Below are positions 2,875 through 24,794 of a DNA stretch of 24,794 nt, piece by piece. Origin of the DNA: a virus; IMG/VR virus record IMGVR_UViG_3300017760_000086, positions 1 to 24,794 of that record. One strand, given 5' to 3'. Each line of letters starts with the position of its first letter. Within the stretch, counting starts at the first letter, position 1. The position numbers were made by a program, and so were the translations under genes. The notes below the pieces were generated by a model that had not been told where the DNA came from, ran no database searches, and saw only the letters and a program-made list of their open reading frames with translations.

Positions 2875-3336
2875 TTACTCCGTATTCTTTAAAAAATTAT
2901 ATCCTACTACGTCATATCCTAATTTAACATATAAATCTCTAGTTCTATTTATATTTATATTTGTGGTAATTCCTGGCCTTATTTGGCAAGCCCCTTTTAG
3001 CTTGGCCCATCTTTGGAATTTTTTTAATATTTTAATAGCAGCGTATGTACCTCTTTTATTTTGATCTACATATAAAAAAAGTTCACCTGCCCAAACCCTA
3101 TGACTAAAAAAGAAATAATTAATAAATCCAACAAACATCCCATATACGTGTTTATTTTCATCTTCTGCGACTAAAGCAAGATAATTTAGATCTTTTGTCC
3201 ACAAATTTTTAACGTTATCTTTTACAACTTCTTCGTTATAATCACATATACTAAAACTAGAATTTTCTGAATTAGCCATGTGCCAACCCATTTCATAAAC
3301 TCTTTGAGCATCTTCTTCTTTCATTTCTCTTATCAT
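2875..3336 (-). CDS. GNAT-family N-acetyltransferase
   Basis: This 153-residue protein has the size and layout of a single-domain Gcn5-related acetyltransferase. The N-terminal strand and helix are MIREMKEEDAQRVYEMGWHM. The central strands are NYLALVAEDENKHVYGMFVG and the aromatic stretch INYFFFSHRVWAGELFLYVD. The motif A loop, DQNKRGTYAAIKILKKFQRW (about 91-110), corresponds to the Q/R-x-x-G-x-G/A pyrophosphate-binding signature; here the second position is Ala rather than Gly. The C-terminal LYVKLGYDVVGYNFLKN resembles the motif B 'Y.KLGF' end. The family transfers acetyl from acetyl-CoA to an amine; the substrate is unknown. The ATG overlaps the stop of the 1423-residue fibre gene by 4 bases (ATGA at 3336-3333), so the two are probably co-translated. 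Acetylation of virion or host proteins are both possible. Confidence 0.85.
   Translation of the reverse strand: MIREMKEEDAQRVYEMGWHMANSENSSFSICDYNEEVVKDNVKNLWTKDLNYLALVAEDENKHVYGMFVGFINYFFFSHRVWAGELFLYVDQNKRGTYAAIKILKKFQRWAKLKGACQIRPGITTNININRTRDLYVKLGYDVVGYNFLKNTE
2946..2959 (-). promoter_or_regulatory. Overlapping double TATAAATA
   Basis: The minus strand reads TATAAATATAAATA, which contains the late element twice, offset by six bases. It lies inside the acetyltransferase gene, in codons for Asn-Ile-Asn-Ile-Asn, and about 76 bases upstream of the glycine-rich adhesin ATG. It could drive that gene separately, or simply reflect the peptide sequence. Confidence 0.38.
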
Positions 3337-6300
3337 AATACTTCAAACTTCACATCTATTAAATTATAATTAACCTTGTAAAAACCAAATAAACCTTTCT
3401 TTATTGCCTGAGGATGTGTATCTAAAAGTTCCTGAGCCATTACACCGCGATATGTTTTAAAGCCCCAAAGATATTTAAATTCGTATATATTAATCCCTTC
3501 AGATGATTTAGCAACCCATTTAATATTTCTTTTTAATCTTCTGTCAGAAGTATCTCGTCCGGTTCCTCCGCTACCACCAGCTTGACCACCATGGCCGGCT
3601 TTACCGTCCGAATCTTCAGCGCCGTCTCCGCCAGCGTTTCCTGGTACAGTAGCTCCAACTCCACCTGCATTCTCGCTGTATTCAGCGTCGCCATAACCAC
3701 CATTTCCACCTCCGGCACCTCCGCCACCACCAGATTTCATTGCACTAGATCCGCTCGCACCACCGCCGCCTCCTCCACAAATAAATCCGTTATTAGTTAT
3801 AATATATTCTGATGGAGCAGTAAAGTGAATTGCTGGCCCGGCGTTCGATCCTGCCTGCCCGGACGCGCCGGCGCCATTGGTGCCTCCACCGTTTCCACCT
3901 TTACCTGTTATTTTTCCATTGTTAATAATTACTAGGCCCTGAGGGAATGCACCTACTGTTAGCGCGTAATTACTTGTACTTGTCGCATGAATATGCGCCG
4001 TGCTAGCAATAGTTAAAAGCACTCTTTCGTTTTGGTTCCACCCTTGCTCAACTAAATAAGTATTTAAATTTAGATCTGTCTGATTAGAAGTAATAGTATG
4101 AACAAAGGATCTTGAGTCTCCATATAAATCACCAAACGATATAGGCCTTGAAAATGTTAAATGATTATTAACTATTCCAAGATTGGGATCATCAGATGGT
4201 GTAGTGCTATACATACCTAATAGCCCTTCCATTTGATTAATATCTGCTATTGAGGCACCTCCGGCACCAGCCTTAAACTCAGTATTAAACTGAATCGCAA
4301 CTGTGTTGCTAGGGTGTACCATAGTCTGTGTACTAGCGACAGATAACGTTTGTGCGGCGGCCCATGAGGCTGGAATTGCGTTGTTGAATCTATCATTTAT
4401 GCTCTCACCACCAAGTCCAAAGGTTTTAGTTGTGCTAAAAGAAAAACTATAAGTTTCAGATATGGTAGCAGTAGAGGGGATGTTGTTGTCTGATTGCGCA
4501 TATACATTTAAAGGAGGAGAATTACCTGCGCCTACGTTAACTTTGCCAAAGTTATAAGAACTGCTCGCCACGCTGTAATATCTAAAGCTTCCGGGTTCTT
4601 CTATCTGAGCTGTAAGTATCTCACCCTGTGTTCCTACAGTTAATACTTTAATGGTTGGTTGTATGTTAAGAATCAAAGGAGATTCTGGCATACCGATGTT
4701 TCCTGAGTAATAGTAAGTATCAGATGTTTCATCGTCGCTTTCATAAAACCATCCGTGCTTACTAGAGACGAGTGGAACATTTAGAATCTCTCCTACTGAA
4801 AAGCCACTTCCCGTGCCTCCGCTTGGAATAGAAATAGTTGCCATTTGAAAACTACTTCCCAAATTATAACTTCCTATAGAAGCAGATGTCATTGTTATCG
4901 CAGCTGGCAAACGGTCAAACTCGCCAGGTAGCGCGCTGCTATATACAAAATTTCCACTATTTTCTACTTGTGCAGAAGTTATTTCGCCATCTGAACCTAC
5001 ACCTGTAACCTTAAACGTAGGCTGAACATTAAGTATCAGATTTGTTAACAAAGAGAAGTCACCGTCATTGTCTTCTAATTGTTTTATACTAGAACTTTGA
5101 AGAGGAACATCTACAATATCATTTACCGCAAAACCAGACCCACCGCCGCCAGGAATAACATTTACTGATTTTATAAAAGACTGACGAGTCGATATACCGC
5201 CCGCAATAGCTGTGTTGTCTGTGCTAGGAATAGTTAGGGTGTCAGAACCAGTGAAATTTCTACTTTCAGCGGCATGAGACCCGCCTGGAAGTCCCCACCT
5301 TGAATTACCAACTCCTGAATAATAATAGCTACCCCCATTTTCTATACTTGCCGCAAGTATTTTTCCGTTTGAGTCTACAGCATTTACCCTAAAGGTCGGT
5401 TGGGTAAAAAGAGTTAGGGTATTATTATTAGTATAGTCATTCCCGTCATCGTCTGACGAATAATGTGTCTCAGTAAGAGCAAGAGGAATATCTACAATAT
5501 CATTTACCGCAAAACCAGACCCCGTTCCTCCACTGGGAATACTTATTACATTTATTCTAAGCCTCCAATCGTAGTAACTACCATTGCCAATGTCCCTAAA
5601 GAAAATACTTGCAGGTGCGCCATAATTGGTAGAGAAAAACTCGCTATCGAAAGAAATAGACGCTGAAACTCCTTCCGGTTCAGCAAGCTGTCCTACAGTA
5701 AACTCACTTGAGCCGGCTCCATAAGTTACATTACTTAAATCGAATCCTGTTCCAAGGCCGAACTTATTTGTCGGTGAAGCTGCAGGAATATATACAAAGC
5801 TTCCAGCATTTTCGAGGTCCAAAGTCAGTATTCCGCCAGCAGCATCAACAGTTATAACCTCCATTGTCGGTTGAGTATAAACTGTTAACGCTGCGTTATA
5901 CGTAATCTCACCTGTTGTTATATTGCTTGTTACTACTCCAGCTCTCATCGAAGGCCAACCTTCATCCTGACCAGTCATATCATCTGTTCCATTATCGTTA
6001 TAGGTCACGGGATATATTCTTATATAGCGAGCAACAACACCTACAGTAAACATATTCGTAACCTCAGTAGCTCCATCGGTGTTACCTGTAAATATATTTC
6101 CGCTATCTACACTTGAAAACGCGAACCCATCATTAGAATGCTCTACAAAGAACGTTCTAACAAACTGCGAGTTCACTCTTCCCTGAGTAACTACTCCTGC
6201 TACTGCTTTAGATTCTCCTAAATCAATTTGCATCCATTCGCTATAATCTCCAGAATCAATGTTATTTTTACCTAATTGCGAAACTCTCCAGGATTGCGGA

Positions 6301-7604
6301 GTATTTGCAGGCACATTTGACAAAATTGAACTAAGAGATCCATTGTAATTGACGACCGAAGAGATGTTCGAAATGGTTGAGCCTACTGATGAATATGATC
6401 TAAAAGATTCTGGAGGATTTTCAGTAGTAAAGGTTGGAGTCGCCCCACTCGCCGCGGTGTCGAATACAGTAATATCTCTTGAAACAGGAAGAGGTATATC
6501 TATGATTTGTCCTGCTGTAAATCCTTCACCACGAACTATGCCAGATGCGGATGTATTAGTTGAAGGTACAGTCGGATAAAGTTCAGGGCTGCTTGTAGCT
6601 ACATACGGCTCGAAAGTGTCAAACCCTGTTCCTGTGGCTTCGAAACCAGCATGTTGTGTGTCACCCGAATAAAAGAAATTCCCTGCTTCTTGGATGGTTG
6701 CTGTAAGTATAGCACCAATATTATCTGTAGTTAATACTCTAAAGGTTGGTTGTACGTTAAGAGTTAAATTTAAAGTTGCACTATATATCTCTGTTTCATC
6801 TACGTCCTGCGACGCGTCGTATCGGACAATTTTACTTGCACGCATTGGTACATTAACAATATCACCGGGAGAAAACCCGCTTCCTCCTGAAGTTACTTGT
6901 ATTGTTTGCATAGCAAATCGTGGTGCGCCACCGCCAAGCCATCTAGAAATTAAGACTACAGAGGCGGGTGCACCTTGTCCATTTAAGTTCACAGAGGTTA
7001 AAGAGGCTCTACTTGTTGCAGCGTCAAATGTGCTATTAGCACTAATTACTGCAGGAGCATCTACAATTTCAAAATTGTCTAGGGCCCCGGTCGTAACTAC
7101 ATTAGTAACTTTTACATCTGTATTAGTAAAAAAGTGTGTAAGAGATGTAGTCGCTGCGTCAATCGCTGCAGCTTGAGTAGAGTTTACACCACCTACATTA
7201 AGTCCAATTCTATCGCCTACACTTACTTTAGCGCCAAAGGCAATAGCATCAGCTTCGCCAGTTGATCCAACCGGCGCTGATTGTCCAAAATTAATAATAA
7301 ACGAATTTAATGAAACACCATCAGGCCCGCGTATACTTCCTGTTGCCCAGTTTGAATGTGCCGCGGATTCTAACCGCATATGCACATCTGAAGATAAGTG
7401 TGGATTAAACAAAGGTAACGAGCCAGGGTGCGTACCAAAATTTTGAGTTTCTTCGTTCGGATTATTAAAATGACCCGGACCAATAGCGTCAGAATAGTAT
7501 TCTGATAATTTTACTAAAGGCTGATTAGAAGCTGTATCCCCTAAGACTTGATCAACCTCAGAAGCTTTAATTGGGCCAGATGTTTGTAAACTATTTTGTG
7601 ACAT
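3333..7604 (-). CDS. Modular tail fibre: repeats, F5/8C domain, Gly-rich tip, short S74 tail
   Basis: This 1423-residue fibre has four parts. Residues 1-235 are an N-terminal region (starts MSQNSLQTSGPIKASEVDQV), probably for attachment. Residues about 236-1010 hold five copies of a module of the form GSGF-x-x-x-DI-V-x-V/I-P, then N-x-QPTF-x-V, then G-x-I-L-x-A-x-I-E-x-x-G-x-F-x-Y. The second copy is split by an F5/8 type C (discoidin) domain at about 405-560 (WMQIDLGESKAVAGVVTQGR, FVRTFFVEHSNDG, VARYIRIYPVTYN). Residues about 1234-1350 are glycine-rich and resemble the T-even gp38 adhesin (KITGKGGNGGG, then FICGGGGGGASG). The last 71 residues start SDRRLKRNI and contain YRGVMAQELLDTHP, a short S74-type chaperone. 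In that family the serine starts a self-cleavage that releases the chaperone after trimer folding. The start overlaps the preceding S74 fibre gene by 14 bases. The protein is most likely a receptor-binding long fibre or fibre tip. Confidence 0.88.
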   Translation of the reverse strand: MSQNSLQTSGPIKASEVDQVLGDTASNQPLVKLSEYYSDAIGPGHFNNPNEETQNFGTHPGSLPLFNPHLSSDVHMRLESAAHSNWATGSIRGPDGVSLNSFIINFGQSAPVGSTGEADAIAFGAKVSVGDRIGLNVGGVNSTQAAAIDAATTSLTHFFTNTDVKVTNVVTTGALDNFEIVDAPAVISANSTFDAATSRASLTSVNLNGQGAPASVVLISRWLGGGAPRFAMQTIQVTSGGSGFSPGDIVNVPMRASKIVRYDASQDVDETEIYSATLNLTLNVQPTFRVLTTDNIGAILTATIQEAGNFFYSGDTQHAGFEATGTGFDTFEPYVATSSPELYPTVPSTNTSASGIVRGEGFTAGQIIDIPLPVSRDITVFDTAASGATPTFTTENPPESFRSYSSVGSTISNISSVVNYNGSLSSILSNVPANTPQSWRVSQLGKNNIDSGDYSEWMQIDLGESKAVAGVVTQGRVNSQFVRTFFVEHSNDGFAFSSVDSGNIFTGNTDGATEVTNMFTVGVVARYIRIYPVTYNDNGTDDMTGQDEGWPSMRAGVVTSNITTGEITYNAALTVYTQPTMEVITVDAAGGILTLDLENAGSFVYIPAASPTNKFGLGTGFDLSNVTYGAGSSEFTVGQLAEPEGVSASISFDSEFFSTNYGAPASIFFRDIGNGSYYDWRLRINVISIPSGGTGSGFAVNDIVDIPLALTETHYSSDDDGNDYTNNNTLTLFTQPTFRVNAVDSNGKILAASIENGGSYYYSGVGNSRWGLPGGSHAAESRNFTGSDTLTIPSTDNTAIAGGISTRQSFIKSVNVIPGGGGSGFAVNDIVDVPLQSSSIKQLEDNDGDFSLLTNLILNVQPTFKVTGVGSDGEITSAQVENSGNFVYSSALPGEFDRLPAAITMTSASIGSYNLGSSFQMATISIPSGGTGSGFSVGEILNVPLVSSKHGWFYESDDETSDTYYYSGNIGMPESPLILNIQPTIKVLTVGTQGEILTAQIEEPGSFRYYSVASSSYNFGKVNVGAGNSPPLNVYAQSDNNIPSTATISETYSFSFSTTKTFGLGGESINDRFNNAIPASWAAAQTLSVASTQTMVHPSNTVAIQFNTEFKAGAGGASIADINQMEGLLGMYSTTPSDDPNLGIVNNHLTFSRPISFGDLYGDSRSFVHTITSNQTDLNLNTYLVEQGWNQNERVLLTIASTAHIHATSTSNYALTVGAFPQGLVIINNGKITGKGGNGGGTNGAGASGQAGSNAGPAIHFTAPSEYIITNNGFICGGGGGGASGSSAMKSGGGGGAGGGNGGYGDAEYSENAGGVGATVPGNAGGDGAEDSDGKAGHGGQAGGSGGTGRDTSDRRLKRNIKWVAKSSEGINIYEFKYLWGFKTYRGVMAQELLDTHPQAIKKGLFGFYKVNYNLIDVKFEVL
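5100..5141 (-). repeat. 42-base direct repeat, copy B
   Basis: The 42 bases on the plus strand here match 5481-5522 at 41 of 42 positions; the only difference is c at 5108 against t at 5489. The repeat encodes the GSGFAVNDIVDVPL segment of the fourth fibre module. The copies are 381 bases (127 codons) apart and in frame. Confidence 0.93.
5481..5522 (-). repeat. 42-base direct repeat, copy A
   Basis: This is the partner of 5100-5141 with one mismatch. It encodes GSGFAVNDIVDIPL of the third fibre module. Such DNA identity, against much weaker identity among the other modules, points to recent duplication or gene conversion. Confidence 0.93.
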
Positions 7605-11906: not shown

Positions 11907-14900
11907 TTACGATGTTATAGTTAAAGTCTTTGTACTAGCGTTATAATCAAAGTCTGCACCTGCATTTGCATCAACATATTCTTTTGTAGCGATTGCTTTA
12001 TCACCAGCATCCGTTATATCGCTTATACGTACTTTCGGCAAGGTTGCTTGAGCGTAAACGTTTCCACTCACGTTTTTAATTACTAAAGCAGCATTTGATT
12101 CTAATTTCATGTTATCCGCTCCAGTGTCACCAACAGTCAACCAAACTTGATCATTACCTCCTACTATCACAGCATCGTTCTTAGCGACTCGTATACCTGT
12201 AATAAACGCATTTGGCATTGCGGGTGATGTATCTTCGCTTGCAGAACCATCGCCTAACGACCTATGTCCTACTCGTGTTCTTCCATAAAGTAGGTTATCT
12301 TGACCAGTTTCTTGTGTACTTGGATATTGCTGGTAATTGTATACAACAAGTCTTCCTCTTACGTTTGTTCTTCCAGTTGCATCCCAGTAAGGATGACCTG
12401 CTTGAAGACTTATGCTTTGCGTGTCAAATCCTAATTCACCTACTGATCCGCCCGTACTTGTAAAGTCATCGGCGTTAAGATTAACTGAAAGTGCTGCAAC
12501 TCTATCGCGTTTAACTTTAATAATATAAGTAAGAGCCACGTAAGGAGGATAGTTATTTGTACTATTACTTCCTGCGGATCCAGTGTTTCCAGTACCTGCA
12601 GAATCTGTATTGAAAGCGGCTTTATTACTTACAGTTACAGATCCACTATTGCTGCTTGTTCTTCCTCTATTAGGTGTGGCGCTACTACCTGTTAATTCGT
12701 ATTCCTTATTTTCATTCTGATACGGACTTCCGGGCGCGTCTCTATCATTCGCGCGTTTTATAAAATTACTGCTACTTATAGCAGCAGTAGCAGCCGTCAA
12801 GGAATCACTATTAACAACATAGTGGAAGTGGTCAGCTGAACTCGCGCTGTGTCCGTGCGATGGAATTTCGTGCGTGTGGCTAGGTCCTGTATGTGTGTGT
12901 GAAGGCATAGTAGCTGCTGCGGTACCTTTAGCATTACCAACTTCAAAGTTAGTAAGACCGGTTTGTCTTCCTACAACAACCCTTTGTTTTAAATTGGGTA
13001 TTTTAAAATTGCTTATACCACTACCACCATAAACATTACCAATTGCATCATATAAGAATTGAACTTCATCAGACTCGATTAGTCCAGAAGCTTCTAAGCC
13101 ACCTGTGCCTCTAACTCGTTGTCCCAAACATTCAACCCAACCAGTCGGTATAGTTGATGATTGGCCGGCCCATGGAACTACAGATCCAATTGGCATTGTT
13201 TCGTCTCGATTGAATACCGTTTGATTAAATGTTTGCGCGCCAAAGTTCAGCCATTGAAGAGTACCATTACCATCGGTGTCGCATAAAACACGATTTACGT
13301 TTCCACTCACCGCACCTGTATTACGGCCGGTCGGCCATGTGTATGTCAAATTTCTGATTTGCGTGATACCTTCGCCTCCAGTAACTTTCAGTTGAGTTGG
13401 AAATTCAGAGTACGCATTCGCACCATTATTACCAGAACTGCCGGGATGTATTATTAATCCTTCTTTAAGTTCTCCATCATCACCAGCAGTGCTGTCGACA
13501 TTCAGCGCTGTACTAAATACCAATCTACCTTTGCCATCTCTAGCACTACCAGTTTTAACACAAGAAATTCTTCCAGCTAAATGTGTATGATCAACTTTAA
13601 AGTGAGGTGTATTTTTTAATAAATCTGAACCTGTAGAATCAGGAATATGAAAATCGATTGCAGGTCCATGTCCGGCCGCCGAGGTACCATCATCGCTTGA
13701 TAAGTTATCACCAATTGCTAAAGTAAGCATAGTGGTTGATGTCCCACCCCCAATGCTATGATCTTTGGTTTGACCAATAAACAATTGTTGCTTCATGCTA
13801 TTATGCATGCGTGGATCATTACCATCGGCTATAAGATAACCAGCCGCAAGATGGGAATGACCACTTAAGTTATCAGCATAATTAGCAAAGTCGTCGGAAT
13901 ATTCACCTTCCTTATAGCCACTATCTGAACTAAATCTAAATACTCCACCGTTTGGTAAGGTTCCTGTTGCGCTATCATCATGCCATATATGATCTAAATT
14001 ATCTGTCCCATATTGGTAGAAAACAAGTGCACCTTGATTTAAATGAACACCGCCGTTAATAAATGCCGCGATATTTGTGTTATAAGTTCCTGTACCATCA
14101 TTAGTGGTTGTTAATAACTCGTTATGACCTATATAAAGATTAGCGCTAGGATCACCATCAGTTGAATCGTGCGAATCAAGAATTAATCCTGCTGGCATTC
14201 TATCTACTTGGATACTTTGAATAATTACATCGTCTGCGGTTGAAGCCCAAGCTTCACCCGTCGTGGTATCTGATGTAGCATTATAAGATACGTACTTATT
14301 AATAAAAACAATGTCAGCAAACTTTGCAGCTGGATCAAATTTCTTTTTATTAGTTCCGTTATCTGCATTAAATCCATTTATAATCGCGCTATATTCTGTT
14401 ACAGCATTATTTGGAAGTGCAGTGTTCGAAGCAATACCATAATTGAAAGTAAATGCATCATCTGTACTTAACGCCTGCAAGTCAGCGTTTAGTCCAATAA
14501 ATCCAAGATATATTCGATTCTCGCCACTTGTTGCTAAATTTTTAATTCTTACTTTTACTCGGTACTTTGCAAACTCGTCAATAGGCATCCTTGTAGAAAT
14601 TCTAGCCCATTGCCTCATTTTTCCGGTAACGGAACCCTGTGTTTGATCTGCAGCGTTGGCTAATGTAAAGCGGACACCACCTTGTGCCGAATCATACGTT
14701 ACTGAATCACTTGGGTCCCATACACCATTAGTGCCATCAATTACAGTTTCGGTTCCTGTCGTTGCACCTGTGGGCAATACTGCAGCTCGACTAACTCTAC
14801 CACTCCAATCAAAATCACCTAAATAAAAAGATCCACCGATTATAGTACCTGTCCCTTGATCTGAACCAAGACCATTAGTAATACGCCGCCAATCGTTAAA

Positions 14901-22423: not shown

Positions 22424-24794
22424 CTATACTCGAATACCTAGATCTCTTAATTCTGGATCTATACTGCTATTGTCATAAGTAGTACCATCTCCTCCAGCAT
22501 CGCGATTACTTAACACATAGTCGTTATTTGTCACAGCAGAACTTGAAGAAGCTCCACTGAAAACCGCTCTTACATAAGGTAAAATTTCACCACCTCCAAA
22601 TGCGTTTACTTGAGGAGGCAATGCGGTAAATGTTAATTCTTGTAATGGTGTTCCATCAGAATCTGAAAGACTAAGATCTAAGCTCGTGTTCATCGCACCT
22701 TTATCTAAGGTGTAATTTAAATATTGTTTAGAACCTGTTACATCCTTAAATTTTAATTGGCCGAGAGCATACGAATTAAATCCTCTTTCTAATACACCAT
22801 CGTTATCTCCGCCATGTAAAATTTCTAATACTACATGGGCAATGTAATTTTTTCCTACGTTTATCCAATGTTGTTCTTCTTCAGTGAGCGCGTTTGTTGT
22901 GGGTGTAAGAAATGCTTCAACGATAAATTGTATAATAGCAAAGTCTTTGTAAAGATATCCTGGCTGATAAGTAGGTATGCCATAACCTGTAGGATTATAA
23001 GCTGTGTCTAAAGAAACATCACGAATCCAACTAAAATTCGTTCTATAATTTTCACCTTCTTTTAAGCGATACAACTCTTGTATTTCTTTTTCTAAATTTT
23101 CTTTTTCAGCAAGATAAACAGAATTTGTTGGATCAGCGATTAACTGTTGTTTTAGTTCGTAATACTTATTAATATAGTGATCATCCCATTCGTTATCTTT
23201 GTAAAGTTTTAATACGAAAGCAGCGAAAAGTTTTAATCCAGCGGGGTGAGCAAGATTTAAAAATTCATTTCTCCATTGAGTAGAAGATACACCTGATCTT
23301 ACTTCATAAGAAAAGTCTTGCCAATAATTACTATCTTGCAATTTGTTTATCGAAGAAAGCCTGCCTTTTTCATTAGAATAATTACCTGATAAAGGAGAAA
23401 TCGATTCAGTGAAAGTTGGAGAAAGCAATTGTGGCACACCAAATACTCCTTCAAGCTCGGCATACGCTGGAGGATTAGCGGTCACCTCTGCGTGAGTTGA
23501 ACCTGAATAATATATCTTATAGTTGTTTGACACAGATGCAGTTCCTGTAAGACTAATCACCACAAAATTTTCTACATTGGTTTTTGTAGAATTATACAAA
23601 GCTAAAACTTCAGAATTAGATAATTGCTTTCCATATATAAATGTAGAATTAATTAATCCTGAGAAAGGAAAGTACGTAGATTTAGGATTTGCTGTAGCGT
23701 CCAAGGCCATCGATGTCGCGCCGATCGATAATATCTGTGCATTACCAATAGTAAAGTGTGTATTTTCATCAGGTATCCAATTAAGAAAATCACCATCATT
23801 AGAAGAAGCACCAGACCAAATTGTTTCAAAGGCTTCGCCATCTAAGCTAATCGCGACAGAACCGTTTCCGCTTGATCTTCCATCAACCTTCATCGTGACC
23901 ATGTGCCATTTGTCATCAACAATTTTGTTTGTCGTTGAAAAGTTTGCAAGAGATGAATGATAAATCTTAGTAGGTTTCGAAGAAGTTAAACCTTGATATG
24001 TTGTAGCAGCCTGCGCTTTGAAAAACCCAATTGAACCATCAGTCTGATCCAACATTATTTCTATTTTCTTTTCTCCAACATAATCTTCGAGTTTAACAAT
24101 CATACTATAAGTAAGATCTCCACCACCTGCATCAATGTAATCATTCTTTTGTATCCATGCTACAAGCGTAATTTCTTCAGTGCTATTCACCGTGCCATTT
24201 ATGGTTCTATTAGCGATTCTGTCAGTTACTAATCTTGGCTCGCTTTGAGAAAGCGTTGGATTAAATTCGGTATTGTTTGCGCCGTGTGAGCAGAAATCAC
24301 AAAGAATAGAAGAGTCTGCGTTACCATAACTTGAAATATCAGAAAGTATTGTCGATCCCATTGTGTACGATTCTGATATGCCAAAGTCATAGTAGGCCTT
24401 TAAAGAATTTTCTAAGTTAACTTCGTTCGCCAGGCCGGTCGCCGTTTCAATAGTTGAATCAACTAATTCGTAACGAGATATTTGCGCCTTATATCTTGTA
24501 GGATATCCTGTACCCGCAGCTTCATTCCCTGTCATGGTAAAAGGACGAGTTGCATTCATGTTTGCAGTTACATTTGCATTAGTATCACCTGCAGCAATTG
24601 TAGAATCGTCTGAGCAAATTTCTGTTTCGTGTAAATGCATTGCAGAGATTGACCCTGTAAACCAATCTCGGTTTGTCGATGGATTACCATAACCTCCATC
24701 ATCACTTGCTCCAGATTCGCTACCATCACCGATGATACCAAAGCGCCGCGCTCCTTGGCCTAATGCACCAAGTGTTCCAGAATTTGGTGTAAAG
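22424..24794 (-). CDS. LamG-lectin-containing baseplate/tail structural protein, 5' end cut
   Basis: The frame is open through the right edge; an internal ATG at 24640 is not the true start, because 51 further codons precede it in the window (FTPNSGTLGALGQGARRFGI and onward). At least 789 residues are visible. Counted from that ATG, residues about 75-350 form a LamG/concanavalin-like jelly roll: LENSLKAYYDFG, ITLVAWIQKNDYI, then DDKWHMVTMKVDGRSS and the closing FSGLINSTFIYGKQLSNSEV. Residues about 420-510 contain KLQDSNYWQDFSYEVRSG followed by WRNEFLNLAHPAGLKLFAA. From memory, this 'LQDS.YYQDYSY...WR....HPAG' segment occurs in large baseplate-associated proteins of T4-like marine phages. A helical stretch (YYELKQQLIADPTNSVYLAE onward) follows. 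The product probably sits in the baseplate, and the lectin fold suggests glycan binding or decoration. Confidence 0.82.
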   Translation of the reverse strand, partial: FTPNSGTLGALGQGARRFGIIGDGSESGASDDGGYGNPSTNRDWFTGSISAMHLHETEICSDDSTIAAGDTNANVTANMNATRPFTMTGNEAAGTGYPTRYKAQISRYELVDSTIETATGLANEVNLENSLKAYYDFGISESYTMGSTILSDISSYGNADSSILCDFCSHGANNTEFNPTLSQSEPRLVTDRIANRTINGTVNSTEEITLVAWIQKNDYIDAGGGDLTYSMIVKLEDYVGEKKIEIMLDQTDGSIGFFKAQAATTYQGLTSSKPTKIYHSSLANFSTTNKIVDDKWHMVTMKVDGRSSGNGSVAISLDGEAFETIWSGASSNDGDFLNWIPDENTHFTIGNAQILSIGATSMALDATANPKSTYFPFSGLINSTFIYGKQLSNSEVLALYNSTKTNVENFVVISLTGTASVSNNYKIYYSGSTHAEVTANPPAYAELEGVFGVPQLLSPTFTESISPLSGNYSNEKGRLSSINKLQDSNYWQDFSYEVRSGVSSTQWRNEFLNLAHPAGLKLFAAFVLKLYKDNEWDDHYINKYYELKQQLIADPTNSVYLAEKENLEKEIQELYRLKEGENYRTNFSWIRDVSLDTAYNPTGYGIPTYQPGYLYKDFAIIQFIVEAFLTPTTNALTEEEQHWINVGKNYIAHVVLEILHGGDNDGVLERGFNSYALGQLKFKDVTGSKQYLNYTLDKGAMNTSLDLSLSDSDGTPLQELTFTALPPQVNAFGGGEILPYVRAVFSGASSSSAVTNNDYVLSNRDAGGDGTTYDNSSIDPELRDLGIRV

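Follow-up and report, generated by a model that had tools for sequence, protein, structure and literature searches.

A discoidin domain apparently carried inside a shaft repeat of a marine phage fibre

The window analysed here is a stretch of 24,794 nucleotides (IMG/VR record IMGVR_UViG_3300017760_000086, positions 1 to 24,794). Among its products are a gp8-like baseplate protein (PF09215) and a DUF4815 protein with relatives in the Pelagibacter phages Mosig and HTVC008M as well as in numerous other large phages; it also has a number of fibre genes in addition to the one described below, and it can thus be attributed to a T4-like marine phage. A leucine-rich-repeat-like protein without a match in Pfam, PHROG or NCBIfam is encoded next to the fibre genes (555-1709); L003 likewise has a protein that reads as leucine-rich-repeat-like beside its fibre genes (12832-14004). 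Directly downstream of the fibre gene studied here lies a gene for a GNAT-type acetyltransferase (2875-3336; PF00583, 23.1 bits against a cut-off of 20.7).

The layout of this fibre gene is given in Table 1. As judged from profile and family matches, its product is a chain of five small modules, predicted to be beta-rich, followed by a GP38-like adhesin region and then by an S74-like chaperone region. The GP38-like region scores 45.3 bits against a Pfam cut-off of 25 and weakly matches the receptor recognition protein 6f45_D (E 0.0039). The S74-like region scores 20.1 bits with PF13884, just below the cut-off of 22, and the phrog_6121 match extends over residues 1339-1416 (E 1.4e-16). The GP38-tipped fibre of Salmonella phage S16 (6f45) has a GP38-type adhesin of the same kind, but GP38 is a separate protein in S16-type phages, whereas in the window a single open reading frame encodes both the shaft and the GP38-like region, after which comes the S74-like region. 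A short glycine-rich protein encoded at 2388-2870, with no family match, resembles the glycine-rich part of the GP38-like region.

Table 1. Features of the fibre gene (residue r begins at window position 7604-3(r-1))
Feature	Residues	Window positions	Strand	Basis or remark
Fibre gene	1-1423	3333-7604	minus
Module 1, uninterrupted	211-341	6582-6974	minus	Profile match, 139.8 bits; itself a member of the profile
Module 2, left piece	346-378	6471-6569	minus	Profile match at model positions 28-53; not a member of the profile
Discoidin (F5/8 type C), within module 2	396-558	5931-6419	minus	Pfam, PDB, bounds from phage relatives, predicted fold
Module 2, right piece	561-637	5694-5924	minus	Profile match at model positions 57-133, 49.7 bits; not a member of the profile
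Module 3, uninterrupted	662-802	5199-5621	minus	Acidic hairpin tip SDDDGND at residues 717-723
Module 4, uninterrupted	798-896	4917-5213	minus	Profile match
Module 5, uninterrupted	899-1027	4524-4910	minus	Profile match
GP38-like adhesin region	1178-1350	3555-4073	minus	PF05268, E 1.2e-11
S74-like (intramolecular chaperone) region	1353-1399	3408-3548	minus	PF13884 and phrog_6121

A reading of the letters and translations alone had proposed that a complete F5/8 type C domain lies within the second module, and its presence is borne out by the family and structure databases. PF00754 (F5_F8_type_C) matches residues 451-538 with an E-value of 5.1e-19 (69.1 bits against a cut-off of 28.2), and this is the only such Pfam match in the whole window. 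A phmmer search of the PDB with the 156 residues originally delimited returned neuropilin-1 (1.8e-20), then factor VIII and lactadherin. The closest solved relatives are the neuropilins, factors V and VIII and lactadherin, with the discoidins of Dictyostelium scoring lower. The neuropilin, factor V/VIII and lactadherin domains have membrane, protein or heparin ligands, and the Dictyostelium discoidins bind glycans. The vertebrate domains (neuropilin b1/b2, the C domains of factors V and VIII, lactadherin C2) and the Dictyostelium discoidins resemble the domain of the window in sequence and predicted fold, but they come from animals or an amoeba, and their ligands are membranes, proteins or sugars. 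In its phage relatives the domain is delimited by shared motifs, NPPE[S/L][D/F]RSYSS at the start and SMRAGV at the end, and the bounds in Table 1, set by these motifs, make the domain slightly longer at its N-terminus than the location first proposed (residues 405-560). It is about 163 residues long and has about 29 more loop residues than its phage relatives: about 11 close to the N-terminus, two groups of 4 and 2 a short way ahead of WMQIDLG, and 12 preceding the last strand.

The segment running from VPL/M to QPT is 30, 205, 26, 25 and 36 residues long in modules 1 to 5, respectively, so that the other modules do have only a short loop at this point, as had been proposed, and this loop is usually acidic. 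Modules 1, 4 and 5 align to module 3 at 39-44% identity. A module profile built from modules 1, 3, 4 and 5 and five podovirus modules, with module two excluded, matches module two in two ordered pieces, one on either side of the discoidin (Table 1). Scored alone, the left flank reaches 18.9 bits, whereas the best of about 190 shuffles scored 3.2; for the right flank the score is 56.4 bits and the shuffle maximum 10.4; the discoidin itself scores -0.5 bits. The left piece retains the signature GxGF....I.D.PL, and the match breaks off at model position 53 and restarts at 57, in the variable loop. One part of the sequence-only reading has to be given up: module two does not begin normally, since its first 27 or so positions are missing. 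This absence, together with the weak score of the left piece (10.9 bits in context, 18.9 alone) and the very low confidence with which the left flank is predicted, would fit a decayed repeat: two beta-rich stretches would then flank an independent discoidin domain, the left remnant serving as a linker, and nothing would have been inserted into a single folded unit. We consider such decay unlikely, though still worth weighing, because the left piece keeps the module signature, the two pieces stop and resume at the variable loop, and module 4 also begins late, at model position 10; furthermore, the alignment used for prediction contained no relatives of the left flank, so that the low confidence says little.

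An AF2 model of module 3 (mean pLDDT 69.6) places SDDDGND between strands at model residues 50-55 and 63-73, at the predicted tip of a beta hairpin. A fold search with this model gave no significant match in the PDB or BFVD, and the module profile had only chance-level matches in the PDB. The region from residue 339 to 650 was predicted with a mean pLDDT of 54.5, with confidence concentrated in the core of the discoidin, and the model of this region matches structures of neuropilin, factor VIII and lactadherin at about 1e-6. The inserted domain is thus modelled with the discoidin beta-sandwich fold, its core being well predicted and the rest poorly; the left flank of module two has a pLDDT below 50. 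The left half-modules were wrongly placed by MAFFT in every alignment that included the full insert, and the model of module two was therefore made without relatives for the left flank, which may be the cause of its poor prediction. Structure prediction for this region recovered the discoidin fold, but the flanking halves were not seen to pair, at low confidence.

Searches with the module and the discoidin separately provided the relatives described below, a second module scan returning the same contigs. The same fibre was found neither in cultured phages by tblastn nor in viral contigs by pattern scans, and the arrangement is present in one contig only. The module occurs as a single copy, with no insert, inside T7-type tail tubular protein B in five viral contigs (L006-L010) from uncultured marine podoviruses, L009 and L010 encoding the same protein, and a more distant copy is found in L011; the module-bearing proteins of these six contigs have no F5/8C match. 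The closest copy, which occupies residues 210-354 of the L006 protein, shares 69% identity with module 3. In the cultured pelagiphage HTVC041P, tail tubular protein B can be aligned with both sides of the L006 protein but gives no match to the module; in the uncultured phage MedDCM-OCT-S45-C18, any module match of this protein is very weak at best. By its presence, once and internally, in tail tubular protein B of podoviruses, the fibre module connects a podovirus tail with a myovirus fibre. In these comparisons, the discoidin is an inserted domain in what would be a structural unit that also exists uninterrupted. The proposed graft into the loop of one repeat agrees with the split profile match and with the empty loops of the sister modules and podovirus proteins; joint folding of the two halves is the part left unsupported by the low-confidence prediction.

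The occurrence of the arrangement in a single contig, with the closest relative contig (L002) ending before the fibre, would also be expected had two unrelated sequences been joined in metagenome assembly. This is very improbable: both junctions are in frame at a variable loop, so that two precise joins would have been required, and the GC content and third-position GC of the discoidin resemble those of its flanks. Base composition does not point to a recent transfer, and a search for exact repeats of at least 7 bases shared between the surroundings of the two junctions found none.

The phage relatives of the discoidin (in L004, L016, L017 and L012/L013) are 50-56% identical to it and belong to the same subfamily. 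In L004/L014, L016 and L017, the domain forms the C-terminus of a baseplate-wedge-like protein, the L017 carrier having matches to two families, baseplate wedge and laminin-G; the end of a protein resembling these carriers is present in L015. In L012/L013, more than one discoidin is found in tandem in another virion-like protein. The discoidins of L004, L016, L017 and L012/L013 are thus C-terminal or in tandem and do not lie inside this module, unlike that of the window. The presence of such close relatives in different virion-like proteins indicates that the domain moves between proteins. In a scan of bacterial genomes, the only matches were three weak ones (30-33% identity), and no donor is therefore proposed. 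In the discoidin-bearing protein encoded at 4810-7230 of L013 (also in L012), the first discoidin is in turn split by an additional stretch of roughly 100 residues. The window encodes a baseplate protein (22424-24793) that resembles by eye those of L004, L016 and L017; it lacks their C-terminal discoidin, and Pfam gave nothing for it at E 0.1.

Discoidins such as neuropilin b1 bind proteins, and protein-protein contacts are plausible for relatives carried on a baseplate-wedge-like protein; the domain could, on these grounds, be structural, binding another virion protein or stabilizing the fibre or its packing with no contact with the host. Such a role seems improbable for a domain present once, in one repeat of an adhesin-bearing fibre, the four other modules of which do without it.

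Binding domains grafted into tail proteins have been described in other phages. In skunaviruses, carbohydrate-binding domains inserted into the evolved Dit allow adsorption to lactococci with a certain exopolysaccharide (PMC10688798, PMC6669499). The likeness would lie in the insertion of a surface-binding domain into a tail structural protein, providing an accessory contact besides the receptor-binding protein. The evolved Dit, however, is a distal tail protein with a BppA-like carbohydrate-binding module from siphophages of Gram-positive bacteria, for which adsorption has been tested, whereas the discoidin of the window lies in a repeat of a myovirus fibre. The carrier, a repeat fibre with a GP38 region and not a Dit protein, is thus an analogue of the evolved Dit rather than a member of the group. 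Discoidin domains are known in jumbo phages (PMC7824862), Dickeya phages (PMC6143709) and the Oceanospirillum phage GJ44 (PMC8451122), and the LKA1 tailspike ends in a discoidin-like C-terminal domain (PMC5701251). These, too, are discoidin-type beta-sandwiches in phage proteins and proposed binders of surface sugars; the parts of these four reports consulted describe no insertion into a fibre-shaft repeat, and the LKA1 domain is C-terminal.

The discoidin is probably an accessory surface-binding head on a hairpin of the fibre shaft, aiding adsorption beside the main receptor contact, a view that we hold with moderate confidence. The hairpin loop of module two, which is short in the sister modules, would hold a complete discoidin, most likely projecting sideways from the shaft, and this domain may contact a glycan or lipid of the cell surface and help adsorption, either ahead of or during engagement of the main receptor by the tip. 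We infer that the interrupted module folds as one unit and that the discoidin is turned outward, where it would bind the surface of the host; the host-binding role is suggested by the precedents of the evolved Dit and the phage discoidins and by the GP38-like adhesin in the same chain. Against an accessory head stand the poor prediction of the module-two flanks, the absence of the first 27 or so positions, as a result of which the fold may not be intact, and the restriction of the arrangement to one contig.

Grafted binding domains have precedents among other tail proteins of phages, but both the module involved here and the placement of the domain look new. The fibre provides a clear case, at the sequence level, of a discoidin housed within one repeat of the shaft of a phage fibre, and a myovirus fibre is tied to a podovirus tail protein by a common module named in no family library. 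The loop of this module can apparently accommodate a graft some 160 residues long. Much more tentatively, the hairpin loop could be a natural docking site for foreign binding domains, each fibre repeat offering a loop for a head such as a discoidin, a generalization that we regard as doubtful at present. If it holds, phages would change their grip by grafting domains into loops as well as by swapping fibre tips.
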